A stretch of 64,000 nucleotides of DNA from Carboxylicivirga sediminis (lineage in GTDB: Bacteria > Bacteroidota > Bacteroidia > Bacteroidales > Marinilabiliaceae): NCBI RefSeq assembly GCF_018156225.1, contig NZ_JAGTAR010000024.1, positions 1 through 64,000 on the forward strand, in the 5' to 3' direction. A model generated the notes under the pieces. It had not been told where the DNA came from. It saw nothing but the letters and a program-made list of their open reading frames with translations, and did not search any database. The first letter of the stretch is position 1. Every line of letters begins with the position of its first letter. Positions 3,143-58,708 of the stretch are shown in pieces. Both the position numbers and the translations under genes were made by a program.

Positions 3143-3218
3143 TGGTGACTCAGCAGGGATTCGAACCCTGGACCCACGCCTTAAAAGGGCGTTGCTCTAC
3201 CAGCTGAGCTACTGAGTC
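3143..3218 (-). tRNA. tRNA-Lys (anticodon TTT), copy 3 in transcription order
   Basis: A complete cloverleaf of 76 nt including an encoded CCA. The acceptor arms are GACTCAG and CTGAGTC with discriminator A, the D-stem begins GCTC, the anticodon loop is CTTTTAA and the T-arm is CAGGG-TTCGAAT-CCCTG. The body is identical to the other two copies. Confidence 0.97.
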
Positions 3219-3243
3219 ATCCTATACCGGATGTATCGGTTTC

Positions 3244-3272
3244 AAAAAAAGAGACCTTTCGTTTAAAGGTCT
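3244..3272 (-). terminator. hairpin with T run between tRNA-Lys copies
   Basis: On the minus strand, AGACCTTT and AAAGGTCT form an 8-bp stem followed by Ts. It lies directly after the middle tRNA, so it is either a terminator or attenuator of that tRNA or a processing signal. Confidence 0.6.
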
Positions 3273-3277
3273 AAAAG

Positions 3278-3353
3278 TGGTGACTCAGCAGGGATTCGAA
3301 CCCTGGACCCACGCCTTAAAAGGGCGTTGCTCTACCAGCTGAGCTACTGAGTC
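3278..3353 (-). tRNA. tRNA-Lys (anticodon TTT), copy 2
   Basis: Identical in sequence to the copy 135 bp to its left, with encoded CCA, TTT anticodon and all cloverleaf stems intact. Confidence 0.97.
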
Positions 3354-3382
3354 ATCCTTATACCGAATGTATCGGCTTTCAT

Positions 3383-3410
3383 AAAAAAGACCTCTTGTTT
3401 TTAGAGGTCT
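3383..3410 (-). terminator. hairpin with T run between tRNA-Lys copies
   Basis: On the minus strand, AGACCTCT and AGAGGTCT form an 8-bp stem followed by a T run. The equivalent stem at 3252-3272 differs in sequence at two paired positions yet still pairs, so the structure is conserved between the tandem units. Confidence 0.6.
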
Positions 3411-3415
3411 AAAGG

Positions 3416-3491
3416 TGGTGACTCAGCAGGGATTCGAACCCTGGACCCACGCCTTAAAAGGGCGTTGCTCTACCAGCTGAGCTACTGAGTC
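3416..3491 (-). tRNA. tRNA-Lys (anticodon TTT), copy 1 (promoter-proximal)
   Basis: First of three identical tRNA-Lys genes in the direction of transcription, 138 bp from the next copy. Encoded CCA and the TTT anticodon are present. A well-formed promoter precedes it. Confidence 0.97.
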
Positions 3492-58028: not shown

Positions 58029-58108
58029 TATTTAAACGATATTTAATAATGTATATATGTACATTTAATTACATACTTTAATGTTTGCTAACACGTTCTT
58101 GCAAAATG

Positions 58109-58124
58109 TGGCACGGCAATTGTT
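58109..58124 (+). promoter_or_regulatory. sigma-54-like promoter, copy 1
   Basis: TGGCACGGCAATTGTT fits the -24/-12 consensus TGGCAC-N5-TTGCW except that GC at -12 is GT. The predicted start is 26 nt from the first base, at 58135. The upstream sequence has diverged from the other copies, yet this core is kept. Confidence 0.5.
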
Positions 58125-58134
58125 AATTACTTAG

Positions 58135-58206
58135 TAGATTTTTTTCATAGATTTGGGTTAGGTTAGTAAATGGGATGATAAACAACGGTTTATGTCCCAT
58201 TTTTTT
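58135..58206 (+). ncRNA. small RNA, copy 1 (about 72 nt)
   Basis: A 5' part of about 36 nt, nearly identical in all three copies (it contains ATTTGGGTTAGGTTA), leads into a terminator hairpin, TGGGATGATAAAC, AACG loop, GTTTATGTCCCA, then seven Ts. The 5' part shows no strong self-pairing and could be the target-binding region. Confidence 0.7.
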
Positions 58207-58351
58207 GTGCTATTGCTTTATTGCCTGCTGATAATTTTATCACGGCACTTGCTCAAAACAGCATGCCAGAAAATGATAGTATCTAAATCAGTTGTGGAAG
58301 TATTACTTATTAATATCATTTAACAAACACTAACAGGTTGGTTTAAATTTC

Positions 58352-58367
58352 TGGCATAACACTTGCT
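58352..58367 (+). promoter_or_regulatory. sigma-54-like promoter, copy 2
   Basis: TGGCATAACACTTGCT matches the -24/-12 consensus at every strongly conserved position (GG and GC, correct spacing). The predicted start is 58378. A housekeeping-type arrangement (TTTG at 58369, 18 nt, TAGATTTG at 58391) is also present and is the alternative reading. Confidence 0.65.
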
Positions 58368-58377
58368 ATTTGTCTTG

Positions 58378-58449
58378 TAGATTTTTTTCATAGATTTGGG
58401 TTAGGTTAGTAAATGGGATGATAAACAACGGTTTATATCCCATTTTTTT
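58378..58449 (+). ncRNA. small RNA, copy 2 (about 72 nt)
   Basis: Same 5' part as copy 1. The terminator stem has A in place of G in the 3' arm (GTTTATATCCCA), which turns a G-T pair into an A-T pair, so the stem is kept and slightly improved. Confidence 0.7.
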
Positions 58450-58596
58450 GTGCCATTAATTTCGTATGCTGTCATTATATATCTGACACGGCCATCGTGT
58501 ATGGGATGCCTGCAAAGATGATCATATTTAAAGCGGTTGTAGAAGCATTACTTATTGATATCATTTAACAAACGCTAACAGGCCAGTTTAAATTTC

Positions 58597-58612
58597 TGGC
58601 ATAGCACTTGCA
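58597..58612 (+). promoter_or_regulatory. sigma-54-like promoter, copy 3
   Basis: TGGCATAGCACTTGCA, again a full match at the conserved positions; the predicted start is 58623. Confidence 0.65.
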
Positions 58613-58622
58613 AATTGTCTTA

Positions 58623-58694
58623 TAGATTTTTTTCATAGATTTGGGTTAGGTTAAAAATAGGATGGTAAACAACGGTTTAGCATCCTATTTTTTT
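58623..58694 (+). ncRNA. small RNA, copy 3 (about 72 nt)
   Basis: The 5' part is the same. The hairpin is TAGGATGGTAAAC, AACG, GTTTAGCATCCTA: its outer stem differs from copies 1 and 2 on both arms and still pairs, which is compensatory change. On the opposite strand this hairpin may also terminate alkC, which ends 15 nt away. Confidence 0.7.
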
Positions 58695-58708
58695 ATGGAC
58701 ACTCTTTA

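Follow-up and report, generated by a model that had tools for sequence, protein, structure and literature searches.

The Vibrio Qrr system combines several sRNA copies, sigma-54 promoters and pairing at translation start sites, but belongs to a different phylum, and its activator and targets are other than those considered here. CrcZ/CrcY and GlmY/GlmZ are also sigma-54-dependent sRNAs, the Crc type being tied to carbon use, and their mechanisms differ from the one proposed below. In Bacteroidota, FopS (RF04319) is described, in the portions of its report available to us, as a set of multi-copy Bacteroides sRNAs repressing susC (PMC11697453). The same portions show FopS repression of the susC gene BT_3983 of B. 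thetaiotaomicron in vitro, backed by in vivo support, and state that FopS RNAs bind RbpB via their 5′ part and that RbpB relieves the repression (PMC11697453). GibS, from the same species, has its R1 seed in common with FopS and binds mRNA start regions, according to the accessible parts of two papers (PMC7366714, PMC11697453). The preliminary description of the present locus knew of no such family in Bacteroidota; this was mistaken, as FopS is a related multi-copy sRNA family in that phylum, going by those same portions (RF04319; PMC11697453). What we could not trace to a published account is the sigma-54 wiring, not the RNA family: the literature searched yielded nothing on a multi-copy sRNA circuit of Bacteroidota that depends on sigma-54, and the available sections of a paper on predicted sigma-54 targets in Bacteroidota (PMC12316311) do not mention sRNA, small RNA or noncoding. 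The best reading of the locus, and one that we hold to be probable, is a sigma-54-rewired FopS-like sRNA family that silences SusC translation.

We analyzed a 64,000-nt stretch of the Carboxylicivirga sediminis genome (the window), in which three tandem units lie on the + strand with start-to-start spacings of 243 and 245 bp, as determined by aligning the copies. Each unit has a TGGCAY element (starting at 58109, 58352 and 58597) and, 26 nt further on, the TAGAT of a conserved 72-nt block (58135, 58378 and 58623) that ends in a hairpin and a T-run (T-run ends at 58206, 58449 and 58694). The alignment confirms the units as first described, and the three-unit observation is real and beyond chance. 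The 26-nt distance also stood, while TGGCAY and TTG are separated by N5, not by the N6 originally given. Copies 2 (TGGCATAACACTTGCT, 58352-58367) and 3 (TGGCATAGCACTTGCA, 58597-58612) fit the sigma-54 −24/−12 consensus TGGCAYRN4TTGCW completely (12/12 positions), as had been claimed, and copy 1 (TGGCACGGCAATTGTT, 58109-58124) has a single mismatch, the missing −12 C (11/12 positions). From the promoter spacing and the promoter positions of class-2 and FopS loci (below), we place the predicted sRNAs at 58135-58206, 58378-58449 and 58623-58694, assignments that draw on the alignment, the folds, the FopS match and the family census.

The 5′ part of the predicted RNAs is almost unchanged, in agreement with the preliminary description: a 31-nt segment, TAGATTTTTTTCATAGATTTGGGTTAGGTTA, is identical in copies 1, 2 and 3, and the folds of the window copies give the 5′ part just a weak predicted hairpin. 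The 3′ part folds into predicted Rho-independent terminators, each a hairpin followed by a T-run (58168-58206, 58411-58449 and 58653-58694). Compensatory stem changes had been claimed, and one is seen (UGGGA/UCCCA in copies 1 and 2 versus UAGGA/UCCUA in copy 3). The fold z-scores of copies 1, 2 and 3 are −1.9, −2.0 and −5.3, so that by folding energy alone only copy 3 is strong. DonS-type RNAs are cis-antisense susC sRNAs, encoded opposite the susC leader. We rejected such an arrangement here because no susC leader borders the array: its neighbors are a glutamine-amidotransferase-type gene (633 aa) and, on the other strand, a DNA-alkylation-repair-like gene (372 aa).

We scanned the locus alone and found that FopS was the only Rfam family to match at E ≤ 1, in all three copies and over its full length (model positions 1-71), with scores of 29.4, 25.1 and 24.5 bits (E-values of 0.023, 0.16 and 0.2 over 4227 families) that do not reach the gathering threshold of 56. 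Qrr gave no match at gathering over the window, nor at E ≤ 1 over the locus, and no match to CrcZ/CrcY or GlmY/GlmZ appeared in the window or locus scans. The likeness to Qrr lies in design (multiple copies and sigma-54-type promoters) and not in sequence, much as first proposed. When sequences were shuffled and aligned to the FopS consensus, the shuffles did as well in 6/1000 cases for copy 2, 1/1000 for class 1b, 0/1000 for class 2 and 12/1000 for another of the genome's own copies (L161:1499-1574, on G000:C122). This last copy, GGATTTTGAGTTAAGGTTAG, is of a third kind, the closest to FopS (37.2 bits); by reading, it has no evident promoter of either type. Together, the alignments moderately support a common origin with FopS.

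Like FopS, the window RNAs have multiple paralogous copies (nine places in the source genome), a conserved 5′ part that is predicted to be single-stranded and is followed by a Rho-independent terminator, the common UUUUUCAU-G core together with GGUUA, and an RRM-type RNA-binding protein encoded in the same genome. Pairing at the susC translation start, a trait of FopS, is for the window RNAs an in silico prediction. Unlike FopS, whose loci carry a housekeeping sigma-ABfr box, the window copies have sigma-54 promoters. Across the order, the FopS model matched 73/198 genomes at E ≤ 0.1, 34 of them above its cut-off, with a best E-value of 0.0015 in the source genome. We inspected the best FopS loci of 30 genomes, all from other families: TAnnTTTG precedes the model start by exactly 4 nt in 30/30, and none of the 30 has a sigma-54 site at the proper distance (two matches are 29 nt away). 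Since the FopS match is full-length but below gathering, and the copies have sigma-54 sites, we call these RNAs FopS-like: formal membership failed, and what chiefly sets them apart is their sigma-54 wiring. As in GibS, whose promoter is PM2, the promoter is of a non-housekeeping type; however, PM2 is near-palindromic and has its elements at −10 and −30 instead of −24/−12, and GibS has a second seed, R2, a distinction drawn from the description in the available parts of the reports (PMC7366714, PMC11697453).

We next consider the spread of the family. When the DNA of copy 2 and its promoter served as the query, 35/60 genomes gave a match: 35/36 of the host's own taxonomic family (source genome included) and 0/24 from other families. 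In a genome of the same genus (G011), copy 2 is identical over 128 bases. To avoid promoter bias, we then used 56 sequences from that search to make a sequence model (R1) that covers just the core, in 32 positions, and it matched 60/71 genomes of the family at E ≤ 0.01. The source genome holds nine places at E < 0.001, two of them at contig ends (C39:140215 and C43:124), and its relatives have, among the matches listed, up to 12 places per genome at E ≤ 0.01. Across the phylum, the core model matched 1/395 genomes, the source genome itself, under strict filters by which distant relatives may be missed. The promoter-plus-core pattern was found in 39 stretches of named genomes, of which 33 are labeled Carboxylicivirga or Marinilabiliaceae, two Saccharicrinis, two 'Bacteroidales bacterium' and two 'Chlorobiota bacterium'. 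The two 'Chlorobiota bacterium' records (L120 and L123) match a genome of Marinilabiliaceae (G023), and their label is probably wrong. An exact search of viral_contigs gave no match to the core. The preliminary description would have fallen had relatives lacked homologous units with conserved promoter cores; such units are found widely in the family.

The core is strongly conserved across copies, most of all in its U-run and CAUAG. Another proposal is that the units are functionless repeat DNA, mobile or tandem, or short coding genes. The array is indeed tandem, the copies are many per genome, and ORFs of 23-25 aa lie on their − strand. Yet the flanks diverge between copies while the core, promoter spacing and terminators are kept, no + strand ORF of at least 20 aa lies inside the predicted sRNAs, and copy 3 lacks the 25-aa ORF seen on the − strand of copies 1 and 2, which together make this explanation extremely improbable. 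The terminators of copies 1 and 3 contain the starts of two + strand ORFs (43 and 36 aa), which extend past them.

The core model listed at least 150 places, 148 of which we classified, two being too near a contig end. Among these matches listed, 78 belong to class 1 (GGGTT), 61 to class 2 (GGAT) and nine to neither class. We scored a sigma-54 promoter when at least 10/12 positions matched at 11-19 nt ahead of the T-run, and among the matches listed it was found in 70/78 class-1, 0/61 class-2 and 0/9 remaining places, compared to 4/2960 shuffled upstream sequences. The sites stand within a narrow range, 13-17 nt before the T-run in those 70/78 class-1 cores (among the matches listed). The rate is 41/46 for class-1 places outside model building and 29/32 inside and, by genus, 56/60 (g1), 10/12 (g11), 1/2 (g12), 2/2 (g20), 1/1 (g4) and 0/1 (g14), again among the matches listed. 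In the 70 sites so listed, the −24 GG is present in 69/70, TTG in 70/70 and TTGC in 45/70, the C being missing in 25/70, and eight of the 78 listed class-1 copies have no sigma-54 promoter. The census supports the original reading of a multi-copy sRNA family with sigma-54-type promoters.

The housekeeping −7 box shows the opposite distribution. With a strict definition (TAnnTTTG, 2-9 nt before the T-run), it was present, among the matches listed, in one class-1 place, 28/61 class-2 places and three of the remainder (shuffled: 35/2960). With a relaxed definition (AnnTTTG at 2-16 nt ahead of the T-run), chosen once the data had been seen, it was present in 59/61 class-2 places, 4/9 of the remainder, 0/70 sigma-54 places and 1/8 other class-1 places among the matches listed (shuffled: 131/2960). 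Promoter type and seed extension thus switch together, GGGTT with sigma-54 and GGAT with the housekeeping-type box. Terminator-like hairpins occur in 61/70 distinct class-1 copies versus 31/210 shuffled sequences, and RNAalifold found five hairpin pairs in alignment A2, each with changes on both sides. For class 2 (alignment A3) it gave eight pairs, none with both-side changes, which we take as misalignment of a variable hairpin. Copies in genome G073 (L320, L321 at two places, L322 and L323), carry CATAGATTAGGGTTTAGG, with a common AGACATAAGAAG just upstream and neither promoter type; they are possibly another promoter class. In genome G002 (L042:5573-6642), three Acido-Lenti-1-like RNAs lie about 512 bp apart near a class-2 sRNA pair, scoring 30.9-35.9 bits against a gathering threshold of 37.

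These promoter positions also bear on where the RNAs begin. Transcription could begin downstream of the predicted starts, driven by a housekeeping promoter that uses TAGATTTG in the core as its −7 box and leaves TGGCA...TTG idle. The preliminary description had raised this box as an alternative, and TAGATTTG does fit a housekeeping −7 box and occurs in window copies 1, 2 and 3 as well as in most copies of each class. As a true start signal it fares poorly: the most conserved part of the core (U-run and CAUAG) lies upstream of and around it, the sigma-54 motifs are nearly fixed relative to the T-run in 70/78 class-1 copies among the matches listed, and the −7 boxes of class 2 (59/61 with the relaxed rule, among the matches listed) and of the FopS loci (30/30) all lie upstream of the U-run. 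The class-2 and FopS boxes support the upstream start, and we consider a downstream start very improbable.

A direct repeat, TTAAC-N6-TAAC, sits 16-17 nt ahead of the −24 element, upstream of TGGCA. In the window it is found at 58078-58092 for copy 1 (TTAATGTTTGCTAAC, one mismatch), 58320-58334 for copy 2 and 58565-58579 for copy 3, all on the + strand. With up to one mismatch it is present in 32/64 non-redundant sigma-54 copies, compared to 11/3200 shuffled sequences; by seed type, it accompanies 27/40 GGGTTAG, 2/17 GGGTTTAG and 3/7 other copies. The exact box combined with the −24/−12 pattern has 20 matches in 14 genomes of the genus (the backwards pattern has one), and 19/20 are directly upstream of core-model places among the matches listed. 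The sole exception (L342, on G004:C36) precedes a 392-aa ORF starting MAYLLDQLEELVANISNPEV. Within the genus, this promoter-adjacent box is almost exclusive to the sigma-54 sRNA copies. Usual enhancer sites lie farther from the promoter than this box does.

We found that UUUUUUCAUAGAUUUGG, in the 5′ part of the sRNA, is complementary to the sequence around the start codon in STN-type SusC receptor genes. Allowing up to two mismatches, the genome contains 42 matches to the complement of the core, CCAAATCTATGAAAAA (nine to its reversed control), and of these 42, 11 are starts of STN-listed genes and ten are sRNA copies. Full-length antisense targets were also sought and rejected: a 26-nt complement with up to three mismatches is found in the source genome only in four sRNA copies. 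As the target set, we took all 22 STN-SusC genes with start regions (23 rows, one gene occurring twice), with the start codon set to the furthest upstream ATG (L194 excepted) and background genes treated likewise. Five of the 22 were checked for SusC identity; 5/5 carry the signature and 4/5 pass the family cut-off, these being partial proteins.

For pairing with nucleotides 1-36 of copy 2, the predicted duplex energy is −19.0 for the 22 STN-SusC starts and −12.3 for 331 other genes (P-value 3.7e-11), a background in which a few SusC-like genes are left, which works against the measured difference. Part of the complementarity is that of the U-run to ATGAAAAA starts; compared to the 65 of 331 background genes that begin with ATGAAA (−13.9), the STN-SusC starts still differ (P-value 8.5e-7), and the seed was equaled by 0/200 of its mononucleotide shuffles. 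The motif AAA[TCA][TCG]T-ATG-A, written after the SusC starts were seen, is present at 17/22 STN-SusC starts versus 1/331 other genes. The seeds of class 2 and class 1b pair with SusC starts equally well, while the FopS consensus seed has no preference for them (−12.1 versus −12.2). In G594, a genome from a different family that carries FopS (800 kb sampled, 10 SusC-like genes), the motif is found at 0/10 starts, and neither the FopS seed (−15.2 versus −11.9 for background) nor the class-1a seed (−14.5 versus −12.1) stood out.

We mapped the pairing along the RNA using 12-nt windows and found that the gain for SusC is highest in TCATAGATTTGG and gone in GGGTTAGGTTAG. The predicted seed of copy 2 (TTTTTTTCATAGATTTGG, 58382-58399, + strand, with the same letters in copies 1 and 3) is complementary to SusC translation starts. 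The stretch best suited to target binding is UUUUUUCAUAGAUUUGG, which would lie over the mRNA start codon; of the segment ATTTGGGTTAGGTTA that had been proposed to bind targets, the GGGTTAGGTTA half has no SusC preference. GGGUU goes with the sigma-54 class, and the seed half that holds it does not favor SusC, so it may have targets of its own. The main targets of these sigma-54 FopS-like sRNAs could then be other mRNAs that pair with the GGGUUAGGUUA half, with SusC incidental, and background genes do include low-energy candidates (best −22.7). The concentration of the start-codon motif in STN-SusC genes speaks against this, and we regard it as decidedly unlikely.

The genome also encodes candidate protein partners for such a system. 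It has one rpoN (at least one is found in 55/60 genomes) and 13 PF00158 matches, eight of which exceed 200 bits and are strong sigma-54 activators, six of these eight enhancer-binding proteins having a receiver domain. A single 97-aa RRM protein scores above the NCBIfam NF058537 Rbp_regulator cut-off. It is conceivable that the sigma-54-dependent RNAs mainly sponge this RRM protein, or another protein, rather than pair with mRNAs. The very conserved core and the encoded Rbp-type protein would suit a sponge, as would the binding of RbpB to the FopS 5′ part and its relief of FopS repression, going by the portions of the report available (PMC11697453). A protein site alone, however, would not explain why the core prefers one gene class at its start codon, and a sponge is in our judgment unlikely.

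Under the preferred reading, silencing of SusC translation, we infer from the genomes that the array comprises three tandem genes, each for a trans-acting FopS-like sRNA of about 72 nt with its own sigma-54 promoter. An activated bacterial enhancer-binding protein would open each promoter, and because opening needs this protein, the RNAs are expected to appear only in response to the signal that the activator senses. The single-stranded, U-rich 5′ part (UUUUUUUCAUAGAUUUGG) would pair with STN-type SusC/TonB mRNA starts (consensus CAAAUYU-AUG-AAAAA), covering the start codon and blocking translation of this class of sugar-uptake receptors. The 3′ hairpin would act as the terminator, an RbpB-type RRM protein would probably modulate pairing, and the several copies would add to the dosage. 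Class 2, with the same seed core and apparent housekeeping-type promoters, is also in the genome and would provide a baseline, placing one seed under two sigma factors.

More broadly, the RNA family may have split between two sigma factors, into a housekeeping class resembling FopS and a sigma-54 class that has its own GGGUU seed extension and the near-private TTAAC/−24/−12 element, through which one enhancer-binding protein would shut off an entire paralogous SusC/TonB class together; we see the chances of this fuller account as evenly balanced. The genomes show promoter type and seed extension changing together, sigma-54 in this part of Bacteroidota would gain a defined RNA output, and the predicted link would connect an enhancer-binding protein with some twenty SusC receptors. 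Elsewhere in the window, three tandem tRNAs with identical Rfam scores are located on the − strand (3146-3491).
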